Shown here piece by piece: positions 27,937 to 54,165 of a DNA stretch of 64,000 nucleotides. How positions within the stretch are numbered: position 1 is the stretch's first letter; each line of letters opens with the position of its first letter. The stretch is from Desulfobotulus pelophilus. GTDB taxonomy: Bacteria; Desulfobacterota; Desulfobacteria; Desulfobacterales; ASO4-4. The notes under the pieces were generated by a model. That model did no database searches, had not been told where the DNA came from, and saw only the letters and a list, made by a program, of their open reading frames with translations. The position numbers and the translations under genes are program-made. The stretch is taken from NCBI RefSeq assembly GCF_026155325.1, contig NZ_JAPFPW010000011.1:62001-126000 (forward strand). Direction: 5' to 3'.

Positions 27937-29343
27937 TTATTTACAAGTGCGTACTTGCGGGTTGTCACGCAGTTTTCGATTCAGGGTCTGCCGTGAGATA
28001 CCGAGCAGTTTGGCCGCCCGTGTCTGGTTGCCCTTTTCCTGATGCAGAGCCAGGCAGATCAGGTTGTTTTCTGCCATGGCCAGGGTGGGAAAGGGTACCA
28101 TGGGCAGTGGATGGGGTGAGGGGTTGCCTTCTGCTGGCTCGATGGGTGGTTTCCCTTTCAGTACGGAAAAACAGGAAGGGGCAAGAAGATCATCATCGCA
28201 TCGGCTGACCGCGTCATGCAGCAAACCCTGCAGCTCGCGAATATTGCCCGGGAAAGAATAGGACTGAAAGGCTGTGACAAGGCTTTCAGAAATCTCTGGA
28301 ATCTTCCGCTGCAGGAGCTTGGCGGCCTGTTTTACGAAAAGATCCATCAGAAGCGGAATGTCGCATTTTCTTTCCCGCAGGGGGGGCAGATGGATGGCGT
28401 GGGGAGCAATGCGGAAAAAAAGATCTTTACGGAAATGCTTGCCTTCCTTCATTTCCTCCGGATTGCGGTTGGTGGCCGTAAGAATACGGGCAGTGGAACG
28501 TCTGGGCCTGTCCGCTCCCAGAGGCAGATAGTCGCCTTCCTGAAGAAAGCGCAGGAGTTTGATCTGGGTCTGAAGGGGCATTTCTCCGATTTCGTCCAGA
28601 AAAAGAGTGCCCTCGGCCGCCTGGGCTACCATACCGTCACGCTGCAGGGCCGCATGGGTGAAGGCCCCTTTTTGGTGTCCGAAAAGGGAGTCTGAGATGA
28701 GGGTTTCGTCCAGACCCGCAATGTTCAGAGCCACAAACTGCCCCTTGCGCCCGGAGAGTCTGTGGAGGGTGCGGGCGATGAGTTCCTTTCCGGATCCTGT
28801 TTCGCCAGTGATCAGTACGGGGAGAGAAGAGGGGGCCACTGCCTCCATATAGTGGAAAATGCTGAACATGGCAGGGCTTGCCGTATGGATGGGAGCAAAG
28901 GCTTCCGGTTGTTTCAGCTGTTTGCCCAGACCGCTGTGAATGCGGCGGGTGGTTTCCGCAAGATCCCGGACTTCAAGGGCTTTCCGGATGCCCACAAGGA
29001 GACGCTCTTTTTCTACGGGTTTGGTGATAAAGTCAAAGGCTCCCTGTTTCATGCATCGTACGGCGGTTTCCACAAAACTGGCTCCCGTAAGAATCACCAC
29101 GGGGATGTGGGGGTAATTGGCAAGGATCTGGGGTAAGAGGGTTTCGCCGCTTTCCCCCGGAAGGTTGAGATCAAGAAGAATGCAGGCCACCTGCCGGGTT
29201 TCAAGAAAGGGAAGGACCTCTTCTCCATTATCCAGAAGATGGATGGGATCAAAACCCGCCTGCCGGAGGATAATCCGGTAGGCGTTTCGGCTGTGGGGCT
29301 CATCTTCGACAATGAGAATTCCGGGAGAATCCCTGTGCATCAT
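27937..29343 (-). CDS. NtrC-family response regulator with GAFTHA variant
   Basis: A 468-residue regulator with a receiver domain (residues 8-120, phosphorylation Asp in LLDLNLPG), a sigma-54 AAA+ domain (about 155-380) and a Fis-type helix-turn-helix (about 425-462: GNQTRAAKLLGISRQTLNRKLRD). Walker A is GETGSGKE and Walker B GTLFLDEIGEMP. The sigma-54 contact loop reads KGAFTHA instead of the almost fixed GAFTGA, so activation of RpoN may be altered. The start overlaps the stop of the hybrid kinase (ATGA). Confidence 0.85.
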   Translation of the reverse strand: MMHRDSPGILIVEDEPHSRNAYRIILRQAGFDPIHLLDNGEEVLPFLETRQVACILLDLNLPGESGETLLPQILANYPHIPVVILTGASFVETAVRCMKQGAFDFITKPVEKERLLVGIRKALEVRDLAETTRRIHSGLGKQLKQPEAFAPIHTASPAMFSIFHYMEAVAPSSLPVLITGETGSGKELIARTLHRLSGRKGQFVALNIAGLDETLISDSLFGHQKGAFTHAALQRDGMVAQAAEGTLFLDEIGEMPLQTQIKLLRFLQEGDYLPLGADRPRRSTARILTATNRNPEEMKEGKHFRKDLFFRIAPHAIHLPPLRERKCDIPLLMDLFVKQAAKLLQRKIPEISESLVTAFQSYSFPGNIRELQGLLHDAVSRCDDDLLAPSCFSVLKGKPPIEPAEGNPSPHPLPMVPFPTLAMAENNLICLALHQEKGNQTRAAKLLGISRQTLNRKLRDNPQVRTCK

Positions 29344-31001
29344 ATGTCTCCTTCACTCAGCCTGAGAAGCCTCAGGGCCGTCTGTTCCAGTTTCTGCATA
29401 CGGATGGGTTTTCCAAAAATATCGGGAACTCCGAGCTGGCGCAGGCGTTCCAGGGCTGCGCTGGATTCATAGCCCGTAACAATAATGATGGAGAGATCCC
29501 GAAGATCCGGTTCGGTGCGGACCCATTCGCAGACCTCAATGCCGTTCATGTCCGGCATATGAAGATCCAGTACCAGAAGATCCGGTTTCAGTGAGCCCAG
29601 TTTCAGGCAGGCAGCCATACCTGAGTCTGCCTCATGAACATCAAAATGGGGATTGTTTCTCAGCATGTCGCAGAGCAGGGCGCGGATTCCCTTTTCATCA
29701 TCCACCACAAGAATTTTTTTGCGCAGAGAAGGGGGCCTCAGGGGGAGGTGAATGGTAAAAACAGAACCCTTGCCTTCTACGCTCTGAATGTCCATGCGGC
29801 CTCCATGCTCCCGGATGATGGTATCGGAAATGGAAAGCCCAAGGCCCGTTCCTCCCTGATCTCTCCGGGTAGTGTAAAAGGGATCATGAACATGGGGCAG
29901 TACATGGGTGGGAATGCCTCTTCCTTCATCCCATATTTCTATGCAGACTTCCCTTGCGGCCCTGTCATGGAATGTGCTGACACGGATGGCCTGATCCCGG
30001 TCCGTGAGTGCCTGGCAGGCATTCTGGATAAGATTGATGACGACCTGTTCCAGTTTCTGAGTGTTGCCGCGAATGGCGGGAAGGTTTTCCGCATAGCGAA
30101 CCCGAAAACGGGGAGCCTGTTTACGGATGAGGTTTCCCAGAAGGCTGATGCCACTGCGCACTACCTCATTGATCTCCACTCTGGCGGAAAGGTCCGGATC
30201 ATCCTGGCGGGCAAAGTTTTTCAGATCTTCCACAATGTTGCGTATACGGCGGCCTCCGTCACGGATGCCTGCAAAAAGTTCCGGAAGGTAGGTTTTCATT
30301 TCTGAATAGGGAAGGCCGCCGAAATCAAAGTCTCCGTGGGTCTCAAAATGTCTGTGCAGAATGGGAATGACCGCGTTCCAGGAATCTTCGATCAGGGGCA
30401 GGTTGAGCATGATGAAGTTGGTAGGGTTATTGATTTCATGGGCCACACCGGAAACCAGGGTACCGAGAGCCACCATTTTGGCGGCCTGTATGAGTTGTTC
30501 CTGCTGATGTCTGGCCTTGGCTTCCGCTTCTTTCTGTTCGCTGATATCCCTGCCCAGAATAAAAAGCGCTGTCATTTTTTTACTGGAGTTGAATACCGGC
30601 CATATGGAAAAAGCCATGTAGCATTCATCGTTGTGATCTTCATAGTGCAGGGGCTGGCCCGTTGCGACCACAGCAGCTACCCTTTTTTTCCTGTGAAGAA
30701 CTTTGTCAGGGGGAATCAGCTCCCAGAGCATGCTGTTTTCTACATGGCTGGACGGAGGAATCTGAAACCACCGGCACATCACCTGATTGATACGGAGGAT
30801 GCGGCCATCGGGCGCTATGAGCAGCAGGGCATCGCTGATGGCGTCAAGCAGGGCATAGCTTACCCGGTTGCTGAAACGCTGATCTGCTTCAAGGTTTTTT
30901 CGTAGCCTGCGTTCCATATGAAGCTCTTGTTCCGCTTCATGAAGCCGCTGCCTGAGGGAGTGGAGGGAGTCTTCCTGCGGGGGATCCTGTGCCTGTTTCA
31001 T
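29340..31001 (-). CDS. PAS-containing hybrid sensor histidine kinase
   Basis: A 553-residue kinase without clear membrane segments. It has a coiled N-terminus, a PAS domain (about residues 55-165), HisKA (GVAHEINNPTNF, phospho-His near 192), HATPase (DEGRGIPTHVLPHVHDPF, GGTGLGLSIS) and a C-terminal receiver (about 430-545; LVLDLHMPDMNG). The start MKQAQDPPQ (31001) has AAGGA upstream and avoids overlap with cheR. The stop overlaps the start of the NtrC-type regulator, so they form a pair. It lies after cheB-cheR and may receive signals linked to that system. Confidence 0.86.
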   Translation of the reverse strand: MKQAQDPPQEDSLHSLRQRLHEAEQELHMERRLRKNLEADQRFSNRVSYALLDAISDALLLIAPDGRILRINQVMCRWFQIPPSSHVENSMLWELIPPDKVLHRKKRVAAVVATGQPLHYEDHNDECYMAFSIWPVFNSSKKMTALFILGRDISEQKEAEAKARHQQEQLIQAAKMVALGTLVSGVAHEINNPTNFIMLNLPLIEDSWNAVIPILHRHFETHGDFDFGGLPYSEMKTYLPELFAGIRDGGRRIRNIVEDLKNFARQDDPDLSARVEINEVVRSGISLLGNLIRKQAPRFRVRYAENLPAIRGNTQKLEQVVINLIQNACQALTDRDQAIRVSTFHDRAAREVCIEIWDEGRGIPTHVLPHVHDPFYTTRRDQGGTGLGLSISDTIIREHGGRMDIQSVEGKGSVFTIHLPLRPPSLRKKILVVDDEKGIRALLCDMLRNNPHFDVHEADSGMAACLKLGSLKPDLLVLDLHMPDMNGIEVCEWVRTEPDLRDLSIIIVTGYESSAALERLRQLGVPDIFGKPIRMQKLEQTALRLLRLSEGDI

Positions 31002-31083
31002 AAAGCCATCCTTGCACCCTGTTCCTGAACCAATGCTTTTCTGACACCGGTCAGCCTGGCCGCAGAGACGGGGTGCTTTCAGG

Positions 31084-31983
31084 TCAGGGGACAAAGACAG
31101 CTGGGCGCATTTCCTGAACAGGATTATTTTTTTCATAAATAAGAGTCATGCCTTCCTTTTTACTCCGGAAAGCCGTGCTTATCCCATAGATGTTTTCGCT
31201 GCCCCCAAGAAGGAGATAGCCGTCGGGCTCGAGGACGGCTTCAAAGCGTTCAAAAATTTGCCGCTTCGTAGATTCATCAAAATAGATCAGTACATTACGG
31301 CATAAAATGAGGTCAAAAAAACCAAGGCTGGGAAAGGATTGAATAAAATTAAGATCCTGAAAACGAACGGATTTTCGAATGGTTTCCAGGAGCAGCCACT
31401 GATTTTCTCCTGTTTTGGTAAAGTAGCGGTCCCGGCGCTGTGGAGAAAGTCCCCTGCTGATTTCCAGATCGGAATAAACAGCTTTTTGGGCTTTCATCAG
31501 GGCTGGTCCTGAAATATCCGTTCCCAGAATTTCGAAATTCAAGGGTGAAATATCATGGTTACCGCTTATGCTGCAATATTCATGGATGAGCATGGAAAGG
31601 CTGTAGGCTTCCTGACCGGTGGAAGCTCCCGCACTCCATATCCGGATGACAGGGCGGGGGTGCAGTGCTTTTTTCCTTCTGATTTTGAGCGCCATTCTGG
31701 GCAGAATGTGGTTCATGAAGGTATCAAAGGGGTGCTGGTCCCGAAAAAAATAGGTCTCATTGGTGGTGATGGCCGCTATGACCCTGCTTTTCAGCGCTTC
31801 ATCCCGGCTATGCCTCAGTTTTTGAAAAAAAGCGTTGAAATCACGGCAGCCTTCACTGATAACGAGGCTTCCCAAGCGTTGCTGGACAAGATACTCTTTA
31901 CCTGTCTGAAGGTAAATGCCGCAGGCTTCATGGATCCAGCCGCGCAGTTGTTCAAATGCATTCTGGGAGAGTTCCATGGTCAT
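31084..31983 (-). CDS. cheR: Chemotaxis protein methyltransferase CheR
   Basis: CheR transfers methyl groups from S-adenosylmethionine to glutamates of chemoreceptors. The 299-residue protein has the N-terminal helical domain (FEQLRGWIHEACGI), TNETYFFRDQHPFD near residue 75, the SAM motif IRIWSAGASTGQEAYS near 112-127, EILGTDISGPAL and ILCRNVLIYFD near 215-226. The start overlaps the cheB stop by one base (TGATG). It is the last chemotaxis gene of the operon that begins at 41278. Confidence 0.93.
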   Translation of the reverse strand: MTMELSQNAFEQLRGWIHEACGIYLQTGKEYLVQQRLGSLVISEGCRDFNAFFQKLRHSRDEALKSRVIAAITTNETYFFRDQHPFDTFMNHILPRMALKIRRKKALHPRPVIRIWSAGASTGQEAYSLSMLIHEYCSISGNHDISPLNFEILGTDISGPALMKAQKAVYSDLEISRGLSPQRRDRYFTKTGENQWLLLETIRKSVRFQDLNFIQSFPSLGFFDLILCRNVLIYFDESTKRQIFERFEAVLEPDGYLLLGGSENIYGISTAFRSKKEGMTLIYEKNNPVQEMRPAVFVP

Positions 31984-33053
31984 CAGGCTCCGGAGCAGGA
32001 TGTGAGATACTGGTGAACGGCATCTGCCATGGTGTCCAGGGGAAAAATGGCGTCAGACAGACCCGCCGACACAATGCTTCCGGGCATGCCCCACACCACA
32101 CTGCTGGATTCGTCCTGAGCAAAAATTGTAGCCCCGGAGCGTTTCAGGCTGGCAGCACCCTGAGTGCCGTCCTGTCCCATGCCCGTCAGAACAAGGGCCA
32201 GAATTCTGTCCTGCCACACAGGGGCGGCTGAGCGGAAAAGAATATTGGCAGAAGGTTTACAGCCTTTTTCCGGAGGGCCATCATTGAGGACGATGCGGAT
32301 ACGGGTTCCTGATTTCCGGACCAGCATGTGACGGCCTCCCGGTGCAATATAAACGGTACGGGGAAGCACATCCATATCGTCGGTGGCTTCCATCACCTGA
32401 TGGCTGCACTGAAGGGCAAGGCTTTCCGCAAGGGACAGGGTGAAATCCGGTGGCATGTGCTGTACCACAAGAACAGGGAGATTGCAGGCCCGGCAGAGAC
32501 GGGGAAGGAGAAAATGGAGGGCTTTGGGTCCTCCTGTGGAAACGGCTATGAGAATGACTTCTGTCAGACCGGCCCGGGGCCCGCATGGTGGCGGACAGGG
32601 TTGGGTTGCAGGCGGTAAGGGTCTGGGCCTTCCCTGTTTCATATAAGAGCGGATTCTTGGGGCCACGGCGTTGCGAAGACGATCCAGTGGCAGTTCACCT
32701 GTAGCCGCAACAGGTTTGGGGATATAGGCAAAGGCCCCGTAGGCAAGACTTTCCCGTCTCAGATCTTCCGCACTGCCCGCATGACCGCTGATGACCAGCA
32801 CACCCATGGATGGATTTTTTCCGCCGCCCGATTCCTGGATGGCTTTCAGGGTGGCAATGCCGTCCATGTCCGGCATGTCCAGATCGAGGGTGATGATATC
32901 AACCTTTTCTTTTTCCAGAAATTCAAGGGCTTTTTTGCCGTTTCGTACGGATCCGACAACCTGGATGTCTTTTTCCTGTGCAAGGCTCAGGGCCAGTGCA
33001 TTCCGGAAAATTCTGGAATCATCCACAATGAGCACGGTGATGGGGGAAACCAT
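31983..33053 (-). CDS. cheB: Chemoreceptor methylesterase CheB
   Basis: A 356-residue CheB that removes methyl groups from chemoreceptors. It has a receiver domain (ITLDLDMPDMDG, phospho-Asp near 57) and a linker of about 40 residues. The methylesterase catalytic triad is in AVSTGGPKA (Ser), VVQHMPPDF (His) and GMGQDGTQG (Asp). The translation stop overlaps cheR. A stretch of 271 bases with a hairpin lies between it and the MCP gene upstream. Confidence 0.94.
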   Translation of the reverse strand: MVSPITVLIVDDSRIFRNALALSLAQEKDIQVVGSVRNGKKALEFLEKEKVDIITLDLDMPDMDGIATLKAIQESGGGKNPSMGVLVISGHAGSAEDLRRESLAYGAFAYIPKPVAATGELPLDRLRNAVAPRIRSYMKQGRPRPLPPATQPCPPPCGPRAGLTEVILIAVSTGGPKALHFLLPRLCRACNLPVLVVQHMPPDFTLSLAESLALQCSHQVMEATDDMDVLPRTVYIAPGGRHMLVRKSGTRIRIVLNDGPPEKGCKPSANILFRSAAPVWQDRILALVLTGMGQDGTQGAASLKRSGATIFAQDESSSVVWGMPGSIVSAGLSDAIFPLDTMADAVHQYLTSCSGA

Positions 33054-33289
33054 GGAAGCACTCCAAATGATCAGGCAGGAAAAACGGAATGGCCTGAACC
33101 ATGCAGCCGGACCGGGACCGGCCGCATTTTGCCCTGATCCTCGGGGTCAGAGAGGAAAGGGATGGGATGTTTAGGAAAAAAGCCATGGAGCAGCGGTTGT
33201 CAATCCAAAGGGATCAACCGTAAATATGACGTCTTTTGCAACTGGATGCAAGGAGTAATCCATATCCCATGGGAGCATTTGCTGTTATG

Positions 33290-33319
33290 ATCCCTCCCGG
33301 CGTAATATCCGGGAGGGAT
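33290..33319. terminator. Hairpin after the MCP gene
   Basis: ATCCCTCCCGG and CCGGGAGGGAT form an 11-bp stem with an 8-base loop, five bases after the MCP stop. No long T tract follows on the minus strand. It may stop part of the transcripts before cheB-cheR. Confidence 0.7.
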
Positions 33320-33324
33320 TGTCA

Positions 33325-35793
33325 TCAGGATTCGGTTTTGAAGGCAGCCATATGGTGGCGGAGATCTCCGGCCAGACGGCTCAGATCAACGGCAGAACTG
33401 TTTACCTGACTGGCCGCCGCGCTGGACTGCTGGGCCGCCGCACTGACGCCCTGAATGTTGGCGGCTATGTCTCTGGCAGCCTGGGCCGCTTCTCCGGCAT
33501 TGCGGCTCATGTCATTGGCTCCCTGGGCAACTTCGGCTATGCCCGTTGCAATGTGCTGGATACCGGACGTGGCTTCGGCTATGTTGCTGGATATGGTTTC
33601 CGCAATGCGTGTCTGGGCCTTGACGGCTTCCGTGGTTTCATTGGTCCGGTTGGATATGTCCGTGATGATGCCGGAAACATCGGCAATGCCTTTGACCGCT
33701 TCTCCTGTTGTTTCCTGAACACCCCGGATTTTAGCGGCAATGTTTTCGGCGGCGTGGGCACTCTGGCTGGCAAGGGCTTTGATTTCACTGGCAACAACGG
33801 CAAATCCTCGTCCTGCTTCACCGGCACTGGCAGCCTCAATGGTGGCATTGAGGGCCAAAAGGTTGGTCTGCTCGGCAATACGTTTGATTACTTCCGTGAC
33901 ATCTCCAATTTCCTTGGCCGCATTGCCCAGCAGGTTCATGGTTGCCGTAGCCGAACCCGCAAGACGGATGGCTTTTGTGGCAATGGCTGTGTTGGTATCC
34001 GCATTCTCTGCAATTCTGCGGATACCTTCACTGGATTCATCCATGGAAAGTGTGACGGCTTTCATGTTGGTGCTCATCTGTTCCGCCGTGCTGGAAATGC
34101 CCTGTATATTCACGCTCATTTCTTCCGTAGCGGAGGCCATAGTACTGATATTGGTGCTCATCTGTTCCGTAGCACTGGCAACATTACTGGCCTGGGCCGT
34201 TACTTCCTCCGATCCGGATGCCAGCTGACGGGAAACGGTGGAAAGTTCTTCGGAAGCACCGGCAAGGGTATCGGCGCCGCCTTTGACCTGACGGATAACA
34301 CCGGAAAGCTGATCCATGGACCGGTCAATGGCCTTGGCAAGTTTGCCGATTTCATCCTTCTGGTCCAACCGGCTTCTGCCCGTCATATCACCCGTGGCAA
34401 GGCCCTCGGCCGTTGCAACCAGAGTCTGTATGGGCCTGCTGATTCCCCTTGCAATACTGTAGCCGGAGGCAAGGGCAAAGCCAAGGCCCAGAAGGGAAAT
34501 GAGGGAAATACCCCATAAAGCCCGCCTGACAATGCGCTTGGTATTCTCTGCCGCCACATAAAACTGCTGCCAGGCACTGTCAGAAGCCTGGCTGGCAAGC
34601 TGCAGAAGAAGGGCTCCGCGGTTTTCCAGCTCTGGGAGGGTTTCGTTTTCAAGAATGAGGCGGTTATTGACCCATGCCGTTGCATGCTGGCGGTATTGCT
34701 GCAGATGTCGGCTTACTTCCGTTAAAAGGTCAAGGTTCCGGGATGCCGTTGTCTGATGGCGGGATGTTTCCAGGTTCTGGCTGAGTGTTGCGTAATATGC
34801 CAGCCACTGGTTACGGTTTTCTTCGTTGCGGTCCAGAATATAGGTTTTTTCAAGAACCCGCATCTGTGCCATATCCTGCGTCAGCGTACTAACGAAACGG
34901 CTTTCCTGAAAAATTCTGGTAACATCCCGGTTTTTCGCTTCAAGAAAAGCTTCCACGAGGGCCGTAATGACGTTGCCCTGTTCCTGAAGTTCACGGGCAA
35001 GGCGGCCACGGCGGGCTTCTGCCGGATTGCTGCGAAAGGCAGCCAGCCAGGCATCTCCCGTTTCCCGGTAGCGAACCAGCACCTGAATCATTTCGTCCAG
35101 CTTTCTGATCAGTTCAGAGTTTGCCTCCTTTTCTTTCAGGCCCTTGGCAAGGGTTTGCATGAGGGCATGTTCCCTTTCCATGGACCGGAAACTGTCTTCG
35201 CTGTCAAAAAGGGCAGAGGCCGTAAGGTGAAGACGCATCATCCCCATCCGGTGTTTCAGTTCATTGGCCATTTCCAGAGCGGCCTGGGCTTCTTCCTGAA
35301 GTGTTTCATAATGGGCGGTCAGTGCATGAAAGGCATTCGTAACTTCCTGGCCTGATACATCAAAGCGAGTCTGGTTCCGGATGTTTTCGTGTATCTGTCT
35401 TTCGCTCAAGTCCATGCTGCGTGAGAAAAGATCGATAACTTCCCTTCCTTTTTGATTGGCATCACTGTTACTGCCAGCATATTCCCGGTGCAGGGAGGTA
35501 AGAGAATCCAGATGTTCCAGAGCCAGAGCCAGCTGGCGGCGGCCTTCGGCAAGGTCGTTATCCTGCCCGTTCATGATAAAATTCTGCATGGCCATGATGG
35601 CTGACTGCGATGCATGTTCCAGATCTGCAACCCGGTTGGTCACGGGAAGGGTATACTCCGTGGTATGGACCATGTCATTGCCAATGGTATTCATGCCTCG
35701 CATGCTGGCTCCACCCAGCAGGAGAAGTATCAGGCAGACAAGGCCAAAGCCAAAGCCAAGTTTTTTTGCAATTCCAAAATCCTTGAATTTCAC
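33325..35793 (-). CDS. Methyl-accepting chemotaxis protein
   Basis: An 822-residue chemoreceptor with a membrane helix at about residues 10-33, a very large outer region (about 34-425), a second helix (about 428-450: [20 protein letters not shown]), HAMP (about 450-505) and the signalling domain. The hairpin tip is [20 protein letters not shown] near residue 655. No C-terminal CheR-binding pentapeptide is visible (ends FKTES). The GTG at 35793 is chosen because AAGGAG lies 7 bases before it; an upstream ATG in frame lacks such a site. The big helical outer domain resembles a four-helix-bundle-type sensor; ligand unknown. Confidence 0.9.
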
Positions 35794-35832
35794 GCTGCAC
35801 ACTCCTTCGTATTTTGATACTTTCAAACAGTT

Positions 35833-36333
35833 TCAGAAAGATGCCTGTTTCATTTCGGTAAGAACTGGAGCAGAGAGGTCACCAGCCTGCTTCAGTATGG
35901 TCGATGCGGAAAGCAGGGTGACAAGTCCATTCTCCTTTTTCAGAATTCCTCTGGCCAGCTGCCTGAGAATGCCATTACCGTTTTCTTTTCTGCGGTCATC
36001 CATGGGGGCTATCATGTTTTCCGGCGCAGGGAACACATCACCGATGCGATCTACAAGAACGCCAAAGGATTCCCCTGCATGGGGCTTGAAGAGCAGAATC
36101 CGGGTATGCTCTCTGGCAGGAGCAGGCGGATGGCCCAAAAGAACTCTAAGATCTATGATCAGATGAATCTGTCCCCGTATGTTTACGTAGCCACGTACGG
36201 ATGGAGGGGCATGATGAACCGGTGTAAAGTGGTTTCGCGTGTGCACTTCCTTGATATCGAATATATCGAAACCGTAGGTTTCCTCTCCAATGAAAAAGGT
36301 ACAGATCTGGCGGTTATGGCTGGTGATCATCAT
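35833..36333 (-). CDS. cheW: Chemotaxis coupling protein CheW
   Basis: A 166-residue CheW that links the chemoreceptor to CheA. It shows GEETYGFDIFDIKEVHTR near residues 15-32 and VRGYVNIRGQIHLIIDLRVLLG near 46-68, the usual SH3-like folds, followed by GVLVDRIGDV. The ATG overlaps the cheA stop (ATGA). It is followed by the MCP gene after 39 bases. Confidence 0.92.
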   Translation of the reverse strand: MMITSHNRQICTFFIGEETYGFDIFDIKEVHTRNHFTPVHHAPPSVRGYVNIRGQIHLIIDLRVLLGHPPAPAREHTRILLFKPHAGESFGVLVDRIGDVFPAPENMIAPMDDRRKENGNGILRQLARGILKKENGLVTLLSASTILKQAGDLSAPVLTEMKQASF

Positions 36334-39299
36334 GCGCTTTTCCTTTGCGGATTTTTGTTCCCATGCAGCAGGATACGGATGCTGTTCCGCAGGTTTTCCC
36401 TGTCTATTTTCACCTCAAAGGCATCAAAGCCCGCTGCAAGAGTACGGTTCCGGTCCGTTTCCGTGGCCAGTGCCGTGAGCGCGATGGCTTTTATATGGCG
36501 GCATGAAGGGTCCTTACGGACTTCCCGTATCAGCTGCCATCCATCCATTTCAGGCATTTCAAGGTCGCTTACCAGAAGGTCAAAGGATTGTTCGCGGAGC
36601 AGTTGCCATGCCTCTCTGCCATTGGATGCCGTTGTCACCCTGCATCCATCTGACTCAAGGTAATTCCGCACAAGCTGGGTGAAAAAAACCGTATCTTCGG
36701 CAAGAAGGATATGACTTTGTTTTGGCTGTTCTGTTTTTTCGCCAAACCAGCCCGGCTCCGCACTTTCAATAATCTGAAAGGGGTCCAGAAAAAGGGAGAG
36801 TTTTTCCTGAACCACAGCAGCACCGAGAATGCCTTTTCCGGGGATACTTTTGGTTGCAAGATCCAGTGGTATATCAACAATATCTCGTATTTCGGAAAAG
36901 AGAATCCCATAGGGCTTTTCGGAAAATTTAGGAAGAAGCAGATGGAAGGTTTCGCTCTCTGGACAGGGGGATACGGGCAGAATGTGTTCCAGCCTGACAA
37001 TGCGGGTGGGAACATTGTCAAGGGTGATAAATTCTTTGTCTCCAATCCGCTCAATATGATGGATGGATATTTTTTCAACCCGTCTTACCAGCTGAAGGGC
37101 CATGGCGAACTGCTCGTGGGGACCGGCTGCGGTGAGAAGAACGGGTTGAGTTGTTGTGGTGGCGTGGGTGTTTTCTGCGCGGGCGGCAAGGGGTACACCC
37201 GTATGTCTGGCAATGCCTTCTATATCCAGTATGAGAGCCACCTGCCCGTCACCCATGATGGTGGCCCCGGAATAGATGGCAATGGTTTTCAGGGCCGGAT
37301 GCATGGGTTTGACCACAATTTCTTCGGTTCCGATCACTTCATCGACCTCAAGACCGAAACGATGATTGCCCACTTTGACAACGGCAAAGGTGAGATTCTT
37401 GCTCTCGCCGTTTCTCGGAGTACGGGCGATGGCAGTCTGTATGGTTTCCGTAAAGGGAACCGGACGTTTCAGCACCTCTTTCAGGCGAACCATGGGCAGA
37501 AGGGTTTCCCTGAGTCGACAGACCTCGTGGGTTCCCACGCAGGAAATCCGCTCGCTTATTTCACGGTCATAGAGGCAGACCAGTTCTTCGAGGTTCACCT
37601 GAGGAATGGCAAAACGATCTTTCCCTGCACGAACCGTAAGGCAGGGAATAATGGCAAGGGTCAGGGGCAGGGATATGTGGAAGCGACTCCCCTGACCCCG
37701 GATGGAAGAAAGCTGGAGAGAGCCGCCCAACGTTTCGATGGATGTTTTGACCACATCCATGCCGACCCCTCTGCCGGAGACCTCTGAGACCTGATCTGCC
37801 GTGGAAAAACCGGAAAGAAGAGTGAGCTGGCAGATATCTTGTTCCGACATACGGGAAAGTTCGGATTCTTTTTTCAGTCCGGATTCCAGAGCTTTTTTAC
37901 GGATTTTGTTCGTATCCATGCCCTGCCCGTCATCACTGAGGACAAGGGCGATCTGGCCTGCTTCATGTCTGGCTGCAACGTGGATATGGCCGGTTTCCGG
38001 TTTGCCTGCGATCACGCGCTGCTGCGGTGATTCGATGCCATGATCACAGGCATTGCGGATAAGATGGGTCAGGGGATCGGCCAGGGCTTCCAGTATGCTT
38101 TTGTCCAGTTCCACATCCTGACCTTCCATCTCCAGCACAATGTCTTTTCCCAGTTTATGAGAAAGGTCCCTCACCATACGGGGCAGCTTGGCAAAAATAT
38201 TGCCAATGGGCTGCATACGGGTACGCATGATGGTCTGCTGCAGTTCCGTAGTTACACCATCCAGACGCTGGGCGAGGTTGTGCGAGCCGGAAGCATGCTC
38301 TGATTCCAGAAGATGCTGGTTACGGACAAGAACCAGCTCTCCTGCAAGGGTCATCAGCTGATCCAGAATGTCCAGACGGATCCGGATGCTGCCGGTTTTA
38401 TCCGCAGTCTGTTCTTTTGTGCTGCCGGTTTTTTCTTCCTGTGGCGGTGGGGCTGGTATGGTTTGGTCTGGAGCAGAAGAGGAGCTTGAAACCACGGAAT
38501 GAGAAGGCATTTCAGCCGTGATGACGGCAGAGTCCATACAGACACCTTCACGGGATACGGGAAGGATATGCTCTGCACCCAGCCCGCTTACGGAAGGGAT
38601 CAGGTCCATTTCCAGAATGGTGGCATACAGTACCTGATAGGTAAGGGGGCCGGTGGGCAATCCCTGACGGATATCAAAGGAACCGAAGGAGAGCTCGGCC
38701 TCCACAATTTCACCGGCGGACAAGAGGTCTGCGATGATTGCCATGGGGCGTTTGCCGGCTTGTTCCATTACCGCAAGATCATAGTGCAAGAGGTAAAGCT
38801 CTCTGGCCTTGTCGATGCGATGAAGGGTGTAGGCAGAAACGGTAAAGGGCAGCGGATTGTTGCAGGCACACAGTTGGGCCGGAGTTTGGCGGTCTTTACG
38901 GGCTTTGTCGGGCAGGCGTTCTTCAAGGAGGGCATCCAGGCGATGCTGCATGCTGCTGATATCCATATCATTACTGTTTTCAACATCATCCAGCAAGGTC
39001 TGGACATAGTCGGTTCCGGACAGAAGACCGTCAATAAGGGGACTATCCGCATTCATTTCTCCGGAACGGACCATGGAAAGCAGGGCTTCCATGGCGTGGG
39101 TGAGGGATCCTATGGAGGTGAGCCCAAGGAAGCCAGCACTCCCCTTGATGGAATGAACAGCCCTGAAAAGACCGTCCACAATGGTTCGGGATGCTTCCGT
39201 ATCGGCGCCTTCCAGCCCGAGTATGTCTTTTTCGGCCCTGGTCAGGTGCTCCCGGGCCTCATTGACAAACTCATCCAGAATTGCCTTGTCATTGAGCAT
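36330..39299 (-). CDS. cheA: Hybrid CheA histidine kinase with two CheW domains and a receiver
   Basis: The 989-residue kinase begins with an Hpt domain (FRAVHSIKGSAGFLG, phospho-His near residue 50). A spacer, the dimerisation domain (about 300-365), the HATPase (NACDHGIESP, DDGQGMD, GRGVGMD; about 365-545) and a CheW domain (about 550-680) follow. A second CheW-like domain (about 715-845) and a C-terminal receiver (about 865-980; LVSDLEMPEMDGW) complete it. Two CheW domains in one CheA are unusual. The start overlaps the gene of the RsbW-STAS fusion by 11 bases. The receiver might take phosphate from the same protein or act as a sink. Confidence 0.93.
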   Translation of the reverse strand: MLNDKAILDEFVNEAREHLTRAEKDILGLEGADTEASRTIVDGLFRAVHSIKGSAGFLGLTSIGSLTHAMEALLSMVRSGEMNADSPLIDGLLSGTDYVQTLLDDVENSNDMDISSMQHRLDALLEERLPDKARKDRQTPAQLCACNNPLPFTVSAYTLHRIDKARELYLLHYDLAVMEQAGKRPMAIIADLLSAGEIVEAELSFGSFDIRQGLPTGPLTYQVLYATILEMDLIPSVSGLGAEHILPVSREGVCMDSAVITAEMPSHSVVSSSSSAPDQTIPAPPPQEEKTGSTKEQTADKTGSIRIRLDILDQLMTLAGELVLVRNQHLLESEHASGSHNLAQRLDGVTTELQQTIMRTRMQPIGNIFAKLPRMVRDLSHKLGKDIVLEMEGQDVELDKSILEALADPLTHLIRNACDHGIESPQQRVIAGKPETGHIHVAARHEAGQIALVLSDDGQGMDTNKIRKKALESGLKKESELSRMSEQDICQLTLLSGFSTADQVSEVSGRGVGMDVVKTSIETLGGSLQLSSIRGQGSRFHISLPLTLAIIPCLTVRAGKDRFAIPQVNLEELVCLYDREISERISCVGTHEVCRLRETLLPMVRLKEVLKRPVPFTETIQTAIARTPRNGESKNLTFAVVKVGNHRFGLEVDEVIGTEEIVVKPMHPALKTIAIYSGATIMGDGQVALILDIEGIARHTGVPLAARAENTHATTTTQPVLLTAAGPHEQFAMALQLVRRVEKISIHHIERIGDKEFITLDNVPTRIVRLEHILPVSPCPESETFHLLLPKFSEKPYGILFSEIRDIVDIPLDLATKSIPGKGILGAAVVQEKLSLFLDPFQIIESAEPGWFGEKTEQPKQSHILLAEDTVFFTQLVRNYLESDGCRVTTASNGREAWQLLREQSFDLLVSDLEMPEMDGWQLIREVRKDPSCRHIKAIALTALATETDRNRTLAAGFDAFEVKIDRENLRNSIRILLHGNKNPQRKSA

Positions 39300-40053
39300 G
39301 GGTGTCTTCCTCGGATTCAGGATTTCGGATAATGGTGTACATGCGATCCAGTCTTGTCATGCGGAAAAGGGTGACAAGACTTTCGCTGGCACGGGTGATG
39401 ACCAGTTCACCATGACGCTTGTTCTCGCCCAGAATCCGGGCAAATCCTACCAGGAGGCTGAGCCCTATGGAGTCTATGTCGGAAGTCTGGGAAAGATTCA
39501 GCCGGAAGGAAGAGATGCCCTGATCGAGGATGGTAAGCATGAGACGTCTGAGACCATCTGCGGTAGCCGCGGTGATATCTCCACCGGGATGGATTTCTGC
39601 CCACTGACCATCCATGTGCCAGGAGCAGTCTTCCTTTCGGGGTACGGAAACCCAGGCCGTAACGGATCCGGGCAGGCGTGTGAAACGGATTTCGTCGGAA
39701 AAGGCATGAATCAGGGCAAAGCCCCGGCTGCGGTCCTGGGAAGGGTCTTCGGGCATGGTAAAGGAGAGAGCTTGTGGATCCACACCGGGGCCCTCATCTT
39801 CTATACGGATACAGAACCTGTCTTTGCCCAGTGCTTCAATAGAGCCTTTCACCAGAAGAGCCCTGTCTCCTGCATTGCCATGTTCAACCGCATTGATCAG
39901 AAGTTCTCTGAGGACAATGATGATTTCCGAGAACCGAGTGGTTCCAAGACGGCCCATAAATTCCTTGGCAAGGCCCACAAGGCGATCCACAAGCCCCATA
40001 TCCGAGCCCATGGAAAAATGCAGAACCCCGTCTTTTTCCTGGATGGCAAACAT
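39289..40053 (-). CDS. Fusion of an RsbW-type anti-sigma kinase and a STAS domain
   Basis: A 254-residue protein with an HATPase_c_2 domain of the RsbW type (about residues 15-145: LRELLINAVEHGNAG, IRIEDEGPGVDP, SRGFALIHAFSDE). A STAS anti-sigma-factor antagonist domain follows (about 155-245: LNLSQTSDIDSIGLSLLVGFAR, with the switch Ser). In partner switching, the kinase phosphorylates the antagonist and a PP2C phosphatase removes it. Here both parts are fused and the phosphatase is encoded just upstream (28 bases). The start at 40051-40053 has AAAGGG upstream. No sigma factor is found in the neighbourhood. Confidence 0.85.
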   Translation of the reverse strand: MFAIQEKDGVLHFSMGSDMGLVDRLVGLAKEFMGRLGTTRFSEIIIVLRELLINAVEHGNAGDRALLVKGSIEALGKDRFCIRIEDEGPGVDPQALSFTMPEDPSQDRSRGFALIHAFSDEIRFTRLPGSVTAWVSVPRKEDCSWHMDGQWAEIHPGGDITAATADGLRRLMLTILDQGISSFRLNLSQTSDIDSIGLSLLVGFARILGENKRHGELVITRASESLVTLFRMTRLDRMYTIIRNPESEEDTHAQ

Positions 40054-40081: not shown

Positions 40082-41278
40082 CTACGTACTTCTGGAGCTG
40101 CCCGGAATGTCCACCACGGCCAGCAGCATGTCATCTGCTGGTTTATTGCGGCAGAAAGCCATGATGTCTTTCCAGAGGGCTGAAAGAAAGTCGTCCAGGG
40201 TTTTGTCCCTGTGTTTTTCAGCCAGAAAAAGGATGCCTTGTTCGCCAAGATTCTCCTTTTTCCCCGTGGGACCATCCACCCGTTTTGCCTGTATAATACC
40301 GTCCGTAAACAGAAGAATGCGGTCCCCGGGAGCCACGGGATAATTTTTTGGATGAAACACGGCATCCGGCCATAGGCCGATGCTGTCTCCTGCTGCCCTC
40401 AGGGGTAAAATTCTTCCTGTTTTTCCTTCCATGAGGATGGGGGATGGATGGGCGGCATTGCAGACTTCAAGGCGCATGGCCGGGAGGCTCATACGAAGAA
40501 ACAGCCCTGTGATCATGCGATCGTTACCGGAAGAGGTAAGGTGGGTATTCAGGGCATGAAAAAAGGTAGTTCCGTTTCGTTCAGGGTGCTCATCAAAAAA
40601 GGCCTTGAGCAGAATGGTATGGTAAGAAGCGCCCATATCATGACCCGCCACATCGGCTATCAGCACATCCCATCCTTCCGTATCCTCGCGGAAACTCAGG
40701 AAGTCTCCTCCTGCTTCCGCATAGGCATGCTGCATATGGCGAAGGATGAGTGCGGTACAGCATGTGGGTTGCCGGGTCAGGGATGCATGGGCTTTCCGGG
40801 CGTCCTCTATCTGTTTGCGGCGGGAAGCAAGGTCCATCCGTAACCTGTCCATATCCCGTTCCCGCAGTCCGTCGGATAAGCGGGTTGCCCGGTCTGATCT
40901 GTGGCGCTCAAGGATGGAGGCGATACAGGTCTGCACCTCATCGGGAGTGAATGGTTTATCAAGGTAATCCCGACATCCCCTGCGCATGAGGCTGACTACC
41001 ATATCTTTGTCTCCGTATCCGGTAATGGCCACAACCGGAATGAAGATATCCTCCCTTTTCATGGCTTCCAGCAGTTCAAGTCCCGTAAGTCCCGGCATCT
41101 GCACATCCGTCAGGAAAAGATCAATGTCCATTTCTCCACGGCGGGTTTTTCGGAGAATGGCCAGGGCTGCAAGGCCGTCTTCGGCAAGGGAAACTTTGTA
41201 GCCTGCCTTGCGGAGGATGAGAGAAAGTCCCAGCCTTGTATGATTTTCATCTTCAGCGATCAGAATATGGGCTCCCAT
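40082..41278 (-). CDS. Receiver-SpoIIE/PP2C phosphatase
   Basis: A 398-residue RsbU/SpoIIE-like protein: a receiver domain (residues 1-125; LFLTDVQMPGLTG) followed by a coiled linker (about 130-165) and a PP2C-type phosphatase domain (about 190-385). The metal-binding segments are DVLIADVAGHDMGASY and LLFTDGIIQAKR. It should dephosphorylate the STAS partner when its receiver is activated. The start MGAHILIAEDE has AAAGGAG upstream (41278). It leads the chemosensory operon and lies directly behind a sigma-54 promoter. Confidence 0.88.
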   Translation of the reverse strand: MGAHILIAEDENHTRLGLSLILRKAGYKVSLAEDGLAALAILRKTRRGEMDIDLFLTDVQMPGLTGLELLEAMKREDIFIPVVAITGYGDKDMVVSLMRRGCRDYLDKPFTPDEVQTCIASILERHRSDRATRLSDGLRERDMDRLRMDLASRRKQIEDARKAHASLTRQPTCCTALILRHMQHAYAEAGGDFLSFREDTEGWDVLIADVAGHDMGASYHTILLKAFFDEHPERNGTTFFHALNTHLTSSGNDRMITGLFLRMSLPAMRLEVCNAAHPSPILMEGKTGRILPLRAAGDSIGLWPDAVFHPKNYPVAPGDRILLFTDGIIQAKRVDGPTGKKENLGEQGILFLAEKHRDKTLDDFLSALWKDIMAFCRNKPADDMLLAVVDIPGSSRST

Positions 41279-41303
41279 GATCGGTCTCCTTTGCGGATAC
41301 CTG

Positions 41304-41320
41304 TAGCAAGTTGTGTGCCT
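41304..41320 (-). promoter_or_regulatory. Sigma-54 promoter of the chemosensory operon
   Basis: On the minus strand: AGGCACACAACTTGCTA. GGCAC and TTGCT have the GG-N10-GC spacing of RpoN promoters. The start site would lie about 12 bases downstream of the -12 element, close to the phosphatase ribosome-binding site. Three 17-bp repeats lie 50-120 bases upstream, as expected for an NtrC-type activator. Confidence 0.75.
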
Positions 41321-41352
41321 CATAGAGTGGCCCCATACTGCGGAGGGCCGTT

Positions 41353-41438
41353 TGTAACAGATGCATGGGTGTCGCAGATTGCAACGATTTCACAATGCCG
41401 GACTGTAGCAATCTGTTACAGTGTCGCAAAAGATTACA
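41353..41438. promoter_or_regulatory. Upstream activator-type sites for the chemosensory operon
   Basis: Three related 17-mers: TGTCGCAGATTGCAACG (41370-41386), TGTAGCAATCTGTTACA (41404-41420) and TGTCGCAAAAGATTACA (41422-41438). The last two have TGT-N11-ACA dyad ends, and the middle one is nearly palindromic. TGTAACAGAT at 41353-41362 is the exact complement of the end of the middle site. Spacing of 18 and 34 bases fits co-operative binding by a sigma-54 activator. Confidence 0.6.
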
Positions 41439-41617
41439 AAGAGGGTGGGTTTATGGGATCAGCGCCGGGGTTGGCAGGAGATGGGGGTTCTGGTCAGACC
41501 GGAAAAGCACCGGATGTGGAGACGGAGGACTCCATTCCGGTTGACGGTCTCCGTGCATCAGGCCGGTCTGTCCGAAGGAAGAAGGGTTCCGCGGAACTGG
41601 GCCATGGCAGGGTGAAC

Positions 41618-41658
41618 AAAAAAATACCTGCACCCATGCAGCAGAATGGGGCAGGTAT
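41618..41658 (-). terminator. Rho-independent terminator after ftsY
   Basis: On the minus strand ATACCTGCCCCAT and ATGGGTGCAGGTAT pair around an 8-base loop with one mismatch. The stem is followed by seven T, and it begins 25 bases after the ftsY stop. Confidence 0.85.
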
Positions 41659-41683
41659 GAAAGAATGGACGGGAACAGGAACG

Positions 41684-42787
41684 TTACACCATGGCCTGTA
41701 CAAAGGTCTGCATATCAAAGGGCTGCAGGTCTTCAACCCCTTCCCCCACACCCACATAGCGGACCGGGAGTCCGAGGTGTTTCTGGATGGCAATGACAAT
41801 TCCGCCTCTGGCCGTACCGTCCAGCTTGGTCAGCACAAGACCGGTCAGCCCGATGGCCTCATGGAACAGCTCCGCTTGCCGCAGGGCATTCTGCCCGGTG
41901 GTTGCATCCAGAACCAGAAGGGTTTCGTGGGGAGCACCCGGCATGCGTTTATCGAGGGTCCGGTGGATTTTTTTCAGCTCCTCCATGAGATTCACTTTAT
42001 TGTGAAGACGGCCTGCCGTATCCACAATGAGCACATCGGCGTTACGGGCTATGGAGGCATCCAGAGCATCATAGGCCACAGCGGCAGGATCGGATCTGTC
42101 TTTATGGCGGATGAGCGTGGCACCACTGCGTCTGGCCCAGAGCTCCAGCTGCTCACTGGCGGCTGCTCTGAATGTATCACCGGCGGCCAGAACAACCTTT
42201 TTCCCTTCCTGCCCATAACGTGCGGCCAGCTTGCCGATGGTTGTGGTTTTGCCTGCACCGTTGACTCCGACAACAAGGATAACCCGTGGGGTGATTTCCG
42301 AAAGGATGTATGGTTGCTCTTCCGCAGGGCCCGTCGGAACTTCTTTGAGAATTTCTTCCCGGATGCGGGCTTTCAGGTCTTCACTGGAATGGATCCGGCC
42401 GCGAATAACACGGATACGTTCTACGATGTCCATGGCCGTTGTGACGCCGATATCGGCTGTGATCAGTTTTTCTTCCAGATCTTCCAGCAGGTTTTCATCG
42501 AGTTTGCGGCCAAGCAGCAGATCATCCACATCCGTTGTCAGAAATTCCCGGGTTTTGGAGAGGCCCTGTTTGAGTTTTTTGAAAAGACCTCCGGTGGCTT
42601 CCGGTTGCAGATTTTCCTGCTCTTGTGATGGACTTTTTCCGACTGCAGAGTCCGGGGAGACGGGGAGGGAAGGGTCCCTATCATGGGCCGGTGGCTCATG
42701 TTTCTTTAGGGTACTGCTTTTCGGACCATTTTCATGGTTTACCGTATTTTTTTTGGAAGATTTTTTACCAAATAATGAAAAACTCAT
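41684..42787 (-). CDS. ftsY: Signal recognition particle receptor FtsY
   Basis: FtsY is the SRP receptor GTPase that docks ribosomes at the membrane. The protein has an acidic and lysine-rich N-terminal region (about residues 1-75), the NG domain N part (about 80-155: LDENLLEDLEEKLITADIG) and the G domain. The latter has GVNGAGKTTTIGKLA, GDTFRAAASEQL, DTAGRLHNK and TKLDGTARGG. Two nearby ATG codons are possible (42802 and 42787). The second has GAGGA upstream and gives MSFSLFGKK, which I prefer weakly. Confidence 0.95.
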   Translation of the reverse strand: MSFSLFGKKSSKKNTVNHENGPKSSTLKKHEPPAHDRDPSLPVSPDSAVGKSPSQEQENLQPEATGGLFKKLKQGLSKTREFLTTDVDDLLLGRKLDENLLEDLEEKLITADIGVTTAMDIVERIRVIRGRIHSSEDLKARIREEILKEVPTGPAEEQPYILSEITPRVILVVGVNGAGKTTTIGKLAARYGQEGKKVVLAAGDTFRAAASEQLELWARRSGATLIRHKDRSDPAAVAYDALDASIARNADVLIVDTAGRLHNKVNLMEELKKIHRTLDKRMPGAPHETLLVLDATTGQNALRQAELFHEAIGLTGLVLTKLDGTARGGIVIAIQKHLGLPVRYVGVGEGVEDLQPFDMQTFVQAMV

Positions 42788-45464: not shown

Positions 45465-45589
45465 CCTTGTTGAAGGCTTTTTTACATGTGAGAAACGGCC
45501 CTTTGTTTGTCCCTCGGGGCAAAAGAAAGGGCTTTTTATGGTACGGAATCCTGACCCTGGTCAGGAAGGATGGAGAAAGGAAGATGTCT

Positions 45590-47701
45590 ATGGTGTCTGA
45601 GGAAAACCAGGAGTATTGGTATCAGCCGGAGATACAGTCTCTTATCAATGGAAAAAGCCGTGAGCACAAGGCTCGTCTTGCCCATACCCCGCCGGTTTGC
45701 CTTAGTCTGAAAAGCGCCCTTACCCGCCTTGAACCAGCCGATGAATTTACCTTTCATCTGCATCAGGAGGCCCTTGCCCAGCTCCCGGGGATTGCCTGTA
45801 ATCCCGTTCAGCGGGTGGTAGAGGATGACGGCGCCCAAGCTTCGGAACAGTGCGGCAGAAAACGGCGGATTGCCATTGTCTTTTCCGGAGGTCCGGCTCC
45901 TGGCGGGCATAATGTGATAGCCGGTCTTTTTGATGCCGCCATGCAAAGGAACCCGGATAATGAAGTACTGGGTTTTCTCATGGGACCGGAAGGCATTGTA
46001 GAAGGGCTGTATCAGCCCCTTACCCGGGAAATGGTGGATCAGCACCGCAATATGGGTGGTTTTTCCATGATCCGCACGGGCAGGACCAAAGTGGATACCA
46101 GAGAAAAAATGCGTCTTTCCCGTAGCACCTGTAAAACTCTGGGCATTGATGCACTGGTGATTGTCGGGGGAGATGATTCCAATACCAATGCAGCCTTTCT
46201 TGCGGAAAATCTTCGGGAAGAGGGCATACAGGTAATCGGAGTACCCAAAACCATAGACGGAGACATTCTGGTTCAGGATGCTTCCGGGAACAGTCTCTGC
46301 GCCGTCAGTTTCGGTTTTCACACGGCAGCCCTTGCCTTTTCCAGAAACATTGCCAGTCTCTGTACCGATGCAGCCAGTGATGTGAAATACTGGCATATTT
46401 GCAAGGTGATGGGCAGAGTGGCAAGCCATCTTGCCCTGGAGGTGGCCCTGCAGACCCATCCTACCCTTACACTTATTGGTGAGGAGCTGGCCGATTATGT
46501 GGATGATGACCGTCTGAAGGCTGCCCGGGAAAGGGGCGAACAAGACTATACGGCGTATGGCATGACGCTGCGGCACCTTTCCCGCCTGATTTGTAATGCC
46601 ATTGTTCAGCGGGCGGCGGCGGGCAAAAATTATGGTGTGCTGGTCATTCCCGAAGGTCTGCTGGAATTCATCAATGAAATTCAGGTGCTGATTATCAAAT
46701 TATCCACCCTGATTGCCGACTATAACCGGACCCATGATGCGGGGTTCCATGAGGTTTTTTCCGATCTGGATGCTCAGACGGACTATTTGCGGCGTATGGC
46801 AAGGGAGTCCCAGGAAAGGGATCAGATTTTTGTCTGGAATCAGAGGGACCATGATTTTTTTGATGATATACCGGATTTTTTCAAGGAAGGACTTCTGACT
46901 GAACGGGACAGTCATGGTAACTTTCAGTTTTCTCAGGTAGAAACGGATAAAATACTCATGGGGCTGGTCAAAGATTACCTGAGTATTCTAAAGGAAAAAG
47001 GTCTTTATAAGGTGGGGATTGACCCTCAGTGGTATGCGGGCGTTCTGGAGAGAGAAGGACTGGATCCGGATGGTTTTGCGTCTGTTCTTTTCCGGAATGC
47101 GGACAGAAAGGGAGAACCTCTTCTGTTTAAAGAGTCTATTATCTCAGTCAAAACCCTGAATCATGCCCTTGTTAAAGAAGGGTTGCTGTCCGATGGGGCA
47201 GCCATACCGCCGGCAATCCTGAAGGTATATCGGAAATCGGAACCCGATTTCCGCATGCAACCCCATTTTTATGGTTACGATGGCAGGGGCAGTGATCCCA
47301 CCCCCTTTGACTGCAATTATACCTATAATCTGGGTAGAACCGTGTTTGCCCTCATTGCCGGTGGAGCCACGGGACAGATGGCTGTGATCCGTAATCTGGA
47401 AAAGGATGTATCGGAATGGGAACCCATGGGCGTACCCCTTGCCGCACTGATGCATCTTGAGGAACGGAAGGGAAAAATGGCCCTTGTTATGGAAAAAAAG
47501 CTTGTGGATGTTCAGTCTCCGGCTTTTCAGGTTCTTAAGGCTATGGGAGCAGAGTGGCTGGCTGCCCGTGCGGGAGAAGATCCCTGTCGCAGGCCGGATT
47601 CTGTGTGGATGACAGGTGCCGAGGATAAACCCTTGACCCTTCTGCTGAATGCCATGAATACTGGCTCCAGCAGAAGCCCTGCATCGGAAAACCTTTTATG
47701 A
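45590..47701 (+). CDS. Pyrophosphate-dependent 6-phosphofructokinase (long type)
   Basis: This enzyme phosphorylates fructose 6-phosphate with pyrophosphate instead of ATP, reversibly, in glycolysis. The 703-residue length is that of the long PPi-PFK. Key parts are VFSGGPAPGGHNVIAG near residues 90-105, VGGDDSNTNAAFLAE (the GGDD Asp that blocks ATP use) near 175-189 and PKTIDGDI near 201-208. MGRVASHLALEVALQTHPTL is typical too. The second ATG (45590) sits 8 bases after AAAGGA and is preferred over the first one (45584), where the spacing would be 2 bases. A longer frame upstream has no family match. Confidence 0.9.
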   Translation: MVSEENQEYWYQPEIQSLINGKSREHKARLAHTPPVCLSLKSALTRLEPADEFTFHLHQEALAQLPGIACNPVQRVVEDDGAQASEQCGRKRRIAIVFSGGPAPGGHNVIAGLFDAAMQRNPDNEVLGFLMGPEGIVEGLYQPLTREMVDQHRNMGGFSMIRTGRTKVDTREKMRLSRSTCKTLGIDALVIVGGDDSNTNAAFLAENLREEGIQVIGVPKTIDGDILVQDASGNSLCAVSFGFHTAALAFSRNIASLCTDAASDVKYWHICKVMGRVASHLALEVALQTHPTLTLIGEELADYVDDDRLKAARERGEQDYTAYGMTLRHLSRLICNAIVQRAAAGKNYGVLVIPEGLLEFINEIQVLIIKLSTLIADYNRTHDAGFHEVFSDLDAQTDYLRRMARESQERDQIFVWNQRDHDFFDDIPDFFKEGLLTERDSHGNFQFSQVETDKILMGLVKDYLSILKEKGLYKVGIDPQWYAGVLEREGLDPDGFASVLFRNADRKGEPLLFKESIISVKTLNHALVKEGLLSDGAAIPPAILKVYRKSEPDFRMQPHFYGYDGRGSDPTPFDCNYTYNLGRTVFALIAGGATGQMAVIRNLEKDVSEWEPMGVPLAALMHLEERKGKMALVMEKKLVDVQSPAFQVLKAMGAEWLAARAGEDPCRRPDSVWMTGAEDKPLTLLLNAMNTGSSRSPASENLL

Positions 47702-53837: not shown

Positions 53838-54165
53838 GCTCTCTCCAGATACGTGGGAATAAGCCCTAGGCACAATGTCTGTGAAAAAAGTTGTTCTTCT
53901 TAGGGAGTTATGTGCCAGCGATGGCTGATCGTATCGGTATGGCACAAAGAAGCGGTCTGATTCTCATGGTTTATGGCTCAGACCGCTGTATCTGGAAATA
54001 TATATTGTTTTTGGTGACTTGTAAATATGGCAGGTGGGCTGGAAAGGGGACAGGAAAGAAGTGCCCGCATCATTATGATTCCACCTTTTCGAGAACGGGG
54101 GAGTCTACGGCAAGGAGGTAACGATGCGGGCCTGTTCTGGCACCATGAAGGGTGCGGCTGATCTG
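53838..54165. other. Spacer between cheA-like and phasin-like genes
   Basis: No gene is supported. Only short frames occur. I see no strong hairpin or convincing promoter here. A TGGCAC (54136) followed by TGC has the wrong spacing for sigma-54. Confidence 0.45.

Follow-up and report, generated by a model that had tools for sequence, protein, structure and literature searches.

NtrC of Escherichia coli recognises 17-bp sites of the form TGCACC-N5-GGTGCA, and its recognition helix reads RNTLTRKL. In the window (the whole stretch of DNA analysed, 64 kb in length) we examined a locus of similar layout, in which 17-bp N5 dyads lie upstream of a sigma-54 promoter and the helix of the linked activator 27937, RQTLNRKL, resembles that of NtrC. 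It differs from the E. coli system in its half-site and in having what appears to be a single dedicated target in the window species.

In Desulfovibrio vulgaris Hildenborough, according to the part of the survey available to us, most regulons of enhancer-binding proteins comprise one to four operons, and three motif groups have TGT and ACA half-sites 9, 11 or 12 bp apart (PMC4641369). Our locus shares with that collection the TGT-N11-ACA sites, an activator loop reading GAFTHA and the small number of targets, whereas the targets there are others, with no such chemosensory operon among the table rows listed in the same source (PMC4641369). The closest system in gene content is Che3/CrdS/CrdA of Myxococcus xanthus, in which, as described in the portion of the report available, a chemosensory system works jointly with a histidine kinase and a sigma-54 activator of the NtrC type (PMC3510030). 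The same combination of chemosensory operon, kinase and activator is present in all three species compared here, that is the window species and two congeners. CrdA, as far as that portion of the report extends, controls developmental genes (PMC3510030), whereas the sites suggest that the target here is the chemosensory cluster itself. In the literature on chemosensory operons under a linked sigma-54 activator, on SpoIIE/STAS chemosensory systems and on Desulfobotulus, judged by titles and the beginnings of abstracts, the arrangement is not described. Each of its parts is of a known kind, and the series of helices and operators reported below is the most useful new element.

Organisation of the chemosensory cluster

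The cluster consists of nine genes on the minus strand and ends with those for a histidine kinase and an NtrC-type activator of its own. It begins with a gene for a receiver and SpoIIE/PP2C phosphatase (40082..41278), followed by those for a protein with an anti-sigma type HATPase and a STAS domain (39289..40053), CheA with a C-terminal receiver (36330..39299), CheW (35833..36333), a methyl-accepting protein (MCP, 33325..35826), CheB (31983..33053) and CheR (31084..31983). The hybrid kinase 29340 (29340..31136) has the architecture PAS-HisKA-HATPase-REC, and its start is uncertain, the reading frame overlapping cheR. The final gene, 27937 (27937..29343), encodes a REC-AAA+-Fis HTH protein with the helix SRQTLNRKL, which we propose as the protein that binds the three sites described below. 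Relative to Che3, the SpoIIE phosphatase and the HATPase-STAS protein are reportedly extra components.

An intrinsic terminator consisting of a stem and T run follows ftsY on the minus strand (41618..41658; -20.2 kcal/mol, z -5.3) and separates that gene from the operon. Within the cluster, the 271-bp gap between the MCP and CheB genes contains a strong minus-strand hairpin lacking a T run (33287..33325; -24.7 kcal/mol, z -4.4), possibly a processing or stability element. Given this gap and hairpin, the kinase and activator may not share the transcript of the upstream genes. Promoter-like matches inside the cluster were at chance level (8 found, 8.5 expected).

Other features of the window were recorded along with the cluster. 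A second CheA is encoded at 52164-53945, a 744-aa protein with a phosphofructokinase domain at 45467-47701, and a CHASE2-adenylate cyclase at 25793-27739, downstream of activator 27937; in congener G002 the cyclase counterpart lies ~3.5 kb downstream of the activator. A dispersed repeat of ~53 bp (TGTGCATCTGNCTGACAGGTATGRTACTT..AAAATTGTGCTGAACAATTACA) was found at 10 places among the matches listed, 3 in congener G001 (L075, L080 and L082) and 7 in G002 (L079, L085 and five more); in L064 it lies at ~10632, with a partial copy near 1638. One copy sits between the MCP and CheB genes of a congener cluster. The same pattern search gave no match to this repeat in the window species' own genome.

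A conserved sigma-54 promoter and three upstream sites

A sigma-54 promoter with correct RpoN spacing had been claimed from the sequence-only reading, and this claim held up. The sequence AGGCACACAACTTGCT (41305..41320, read on the minus strand from 41320 to 41305) has GG at -24 and GC at -12 in GG-N10-GC spacing with TGGCAC/TTGC context, and matches 10 of 12 consensus bases. Counting from these elements, the predicted start of transcription is at ~41294, 16 nt 5' of the ATG of the first gene at 41278; a GGAG lies between start and ATG. Scoring does not set the promoter apart, since 3 sequences in the 64 kb reach at least 10/12 where 5.55 are expected in Markov sequence, and 34 reach at least 9. 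Its support therefore comes from both congeners, which retain it at the corresponding position as TGGCACAYAAGTTGCT, again with a leader of 16 nt. All three species share the order ABC-ftsY-[sites-promoter]-cluster, kinase and activator included.

Three 17-bp candidate activator sites lie upstream of the promoter on the minus strand: site 1, TGTAATCTTTTGCGACA (41422..41438), site 2, TGTAACAGATTGCTACA (41404..41420), and the weaker site 3, CGTTGCAATCTGCGACA (41370..41386), with centres at -136, -118 and -84 from the predicted start. They had been described as TGTMGCA-N5-TTACA sites at 41370, 41404 and 41422. That description is sound for 41404 (TGTAGCAATCTGTTACA) and 41422 (TGTCGCAAAAGATTACA), while at 41370 (TGTCGCAGATTGCAACG) it fits the left half only; TGTAAC-N5-GNGACA on the minus strand is a better description. 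With respect to the TGT-N11-ACA operator group, the match is exact at 41404 and 41422, and one half deviates at 41370. A possible fourth site, or extra half-site, TGTTACA (TGTAACA), is found at 41353..41359 on the same strand.

We ranked all positions of the 64-kb window with a matrix built from the six congener sites only, which placed site 1 at rank 1, site 2 at rank 3 and site 3 at rank 64. In 60 simulated windows there was no pair within 60 bp matching the quality of the two strong sites, and there were 9 triples at the weak threshold. Because of its rank and these weak triples, site 3 was accepted on its conserved position and not on its score. The starting positions in the congeners are 1883, 1902 and 1935 for L063 and 1819, 1838 and 1871 for L064, which puts the centres at -138, -119 and -86 in either species. 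The distance between sites 1 and 3 is 52 bp in all three species, and the starts of the adjacent sites are 18 bp apart in the window and 19 bp apart in the congeners. Retention at the same promoter in both congeners indicates that the operator is real, as had been proposed in the prediction of a regulon with its own operator. The predicted positions likewise agree with the earlier placement of the sites in the zone of an NtrC-type activator, ahead of the chemosensory cluster.

Assignment of the activator

The three domains of 27937, PF00072, PF00158 and PF02954 (REC, sigma-54 AAA+ and Fis-type HTH), all score above the Pfam cut-offs. Its loop reads GAFTHA instead of the canonical GAFTGA in all three species. 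This departure speaks against 27937 as the activator. The variant occurs elsewhere and, in the part of the Desulfovibrio survey available, is grouped with loops expected to remain functional (PMC4641369). The protein is not NtrC proper (NR-I), with a TIGR01818 score of 321.1 bits against an NCBIfam equivalog cut-off of 558.6, and a PDB search with it returned 1ntc only at an E value of 0.19. The window encodes two NtrC-type regulators, 27937 and 47769, as the sequence-only reading had stated, and the two can be separated by linkage: 27937 lies in the cluster in three of three species, and 47769 is linked to it in one of three. On this ground the likely activator of the three sites is 27937 rather than 47769.

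That the sites instead belong to 47769, whose gene lies with that of its kinase 6 kb upstream, appears improbable to us. It is near the cluster, has a canonical GAFTGA loop and an HTH with QRQSLQKI, and has counterparts with 77% identity in both congeners; however, the G001 counterpart is on a different contig and the G002 counterpart ~102 kb away from the operon, though the operator is conserved there, and outside the genus 23 of 55 genomes have matches to 47769 at E ≤1e-120. Binding by some other activator-like AAA+ protein is unlikely, if somewhat easier to envisage given the 39 Sigma54_activat matches in the genome, some of them partial, that offer other candidates. Similar sites need not mean similar HTHs, and sites of the TGT-N11-ACA type recur from one activator to another in the portion of the Desulfovibrio survey available (PMC4641369). 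Against such a protein, the RQTL helix was found in none of the 29 other activator proteins read (the HTH of L013 lies outside its locus, and nine weaker matches were left out), and no other activator locus had a cluster of separate sites, save two weak overlapping matches in L022.

The 17-mers might also be operators of a repressor or sigma-70 activator, with the sigma-54 sequence being fortuitous. The score of the promoter, which by itself is not above chance, would allow this, but the distance of the promoter is unchanged across the three species, its separation from the sites (-84 to -138) is a usual one, and a scan of 41200-41750 for sigma-70-like sequences gave its sole match on the opposite strand, so that we consider a regulator of this kind very improbable. 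Chance resemblance can be given practically no weight. TGT and ACA triplets are common, and in the genome searches described below control counts equalled or exceeded total counts; yet the simulated windows held no pair as good by the independently derived matrix, and the conservation of position in three species refutes this explanation.

Search for a wider regulon

A regulon of several operons had been predicted from the sequence, together with a genome search for further 17-mers near sigma-54 promoters as a check. The search was run, and the prediction did not stand: the own genome contained no second cluster of sites, and none of its one-mismatch copies supported a regulon. Paired TGT-N11-ACA sites within 30 bp occurred at 2 places in the own genome, one of which was the cluster promoter, and the reversed control also gave 2; this pattern misses the congener operator, the congener sites deviating more. 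At no more than one mismatch to TGTAAYNNNTTGNGACA there were 5 matches in the own genome (2 at the cluster promoter; control 5), 2 in G001 (1 at the operon; control 3) and 4 in G002 (2 at the operon; control 9). The six matches located elsewhere (three in the own genome, one in G001 and two in G002) had no sigma-54-like score of at least 9 within 400 bp. Allowing two mismatches in the own genome yielded 82 matches against 96 in the reversed control, and the sole pair of different sites within 100 bp was that of the cluster promoter. The genome is a draft of 86 contigs and 97.66% completeness, and weaker targets would be missed by these searches.

The own genome contained just one other strict palindrome, present once, at C10:134681. 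Some 110 bp from it, at plausible spacing, the minus strand has one sigma-54-like sequence scoring 9, inside a reading frame that we take to be slyX-like from the look of its protein. Since scores of at least 9 are as frequent as counted above for the window, we rated this candidate second target as chance. Separately, the two overlapping weak TGT-N11-ACA-like dyads of L022 (2732-2758, G000:C17) lie near another activator gene and are possibly its own operator.

Recognition helices and operators among relatives of 27937

A search of the order gave many full-length relatives of 27937 at 40-50% identity among the matches listed (291 genomes), from which 27 loci outside the genus (45-49% identity) were fetched. 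In the 380 bp following the activator gene, at least two CAAC-N4-GTTG dyads with no more than one mismatch were present in 15 of the 27 loci (0.22 expected), and a sigma-54-like score of at least 10 in 19 of 27 (0.22 expected). The presence of dyads and promoters behind the relatives' genes suggests that the 27937 family regulates what it is linked to. By eye, the downstream gene in several of these loci, among the output listed, was transporter-like, ATPase-like or lipoprotein-like.

A search of the phylum (395 genomes, E ≤1e-118) added 29 further loci, for a total of 56. All 10 loci with a QQAL helix had ACAAC-N4-GTTGT. With an RQAL helix, GCAAC-N4-GTTGC was found in 6 of 31 loci and single TGT-N11-ACA sites in 2 of 31; with a QPAL helix, ATAAC-N4-GTTAT was found in 2 of 8 and ATAAC-N5-GTTAT in two more; and with an RQT helix, two TGT-N11-ACA sites were found in 1 of 4. 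Three of the 56 loci fell in no helix class. Each of the three N4 dyads was confined to one helix class, and neighbouring sites started 18 bp apart in 8 of the 10 QQAL operators, as in the window. Recognition helices thus appear to track operators among the relatives of 27937, which supports its choice as the activator, in counts that are not independent events, since one set of loci, related by descent, supplied both helix and operator. As counter-evidence, most RQAL and QPAL loci lacked any dyad sought, and 3 of the 4 RQT loci lacked TGT-N11-ACA sites. The spacer is N5 in the window sites as against N4 in most relatives with sites.

At least two TGT-N11-ACA sites were present in only 1 of the 56 relative loci. 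This locus belongs to G708, a genome of the same phylum outside the order, and the RQTL of 27937 recurs in the helix of its activator; kinase and activator are 41% and 45% identical to the window pair. Its order is histidine kinase-activator pair, sites TGTCGCAATCTGCAACA and TGTACAAAATCGCAACA, TGGCACATCCATTGCA, REC-kinase, MCP and CheW. Site 3 of the window, as given above for 41370, may be compared with these two sites.

A model of the locus

We consider it likely, with good though not complete confidence, that the stretch is the dedicated, self-activating sigma-54 switch of one chemosensory cluster, with activator 27937 acting on the three sites. Kinase 29340, possibly together with CheA, would phosphorylate 27937, which would bind the three TGTAAC-N5-GNGACA sites at -136, -118 and -84 and open sigma-54 RNA polymerase at ~41294. 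By analogy with Che3/CrdA, as far as the available portion of that report describes it, CheA may feed into 27937 (PMC3510030). We infer that a single transcript would carry the SpoIIE-type phosphatase, HATPase-STAS, CheA, CheW, MCP, CheB and CheR genes and then the kinase and activator. With these two at its end, the system would activate itself and thus probably amplify its own production. Such a feedback loop with the activator at the end of the cluster needs basal expression. If this model is true, a chemosensory system with no obvious role in swimming governs how abundant it is through positive feedback, and sequence alone would have sufficed to assign a regulator, its operator and their one target in a genome with 39 sigma-54 activator domain matches.

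A broader proposal, which we hold only tentatively and at slightly less than even chance, is that the histidine kinase-activator pairs are portable self-targeting modules in which the helix and the nearby operator change together (QQAL with ACAAC, RQAL with GCAAC, QPAL with ATAAC and RQTL with TGTnnC). In this genus a chemosensory cluster would have acquired one such module at its end and the operator at its head, giving a self-amplifying and possibly bistable array, and G708 would be an independent capture beside MCP and CheW. The correspondence of helix and operator would also predict the sites of other members of the 27937 family.

Chemosensory homologues outside the genus

The HATPase-STAS protein was matched at E ≤1e-20 in 19 of 389 genomes of the order, 16 of them outside the genus. 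From the 25 places outside the genus 20 were taken, leaving out G061:C183, G077:C53, G085:C413, G121:C14 and G148:C10. A tblastn search of the 22 loci with the activator AAA+ region (E ≤1e-5) matched the two congeners only and none of the 20 outside the genus. No sigma-54-like score of at least 9 was found within 60 bp of the first gene in the 17 outside-genus loci with readable upstream sequence; two of the 17 had a score-9 sequence ~370-435 bp upstream. Contig ends cut several of these loci short, and in one only ~150 bp upstream can be read. Footprinting at the first gene outside the genus revealed no shared operator. The absence of the activator and of a near promoter from these loci suggests that operator and activator were gained together. 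This co-gain is not perfectly clean, since upstream in L068 (G040), outside the genus, there are sites of the GTAAC/GCAAC type and an imperfect TGGCACAATTCTTCCT, with no activator within the stretch read.

Some genomes of the order have two or three HATPase-STAS copies, mostly beside RR-SpoIIE or CheA, at L160 and L168 (G117), L163 and L164 (G115), L161 and L170 (G075), and L159 and L171 (G077). In L167 (G085), directly before an RR-SpoIIE gene, a kinase at 150-929 is 47% identical over 260 residues to kinase 29340, hinting at an older tie between kinases of this type and the module.
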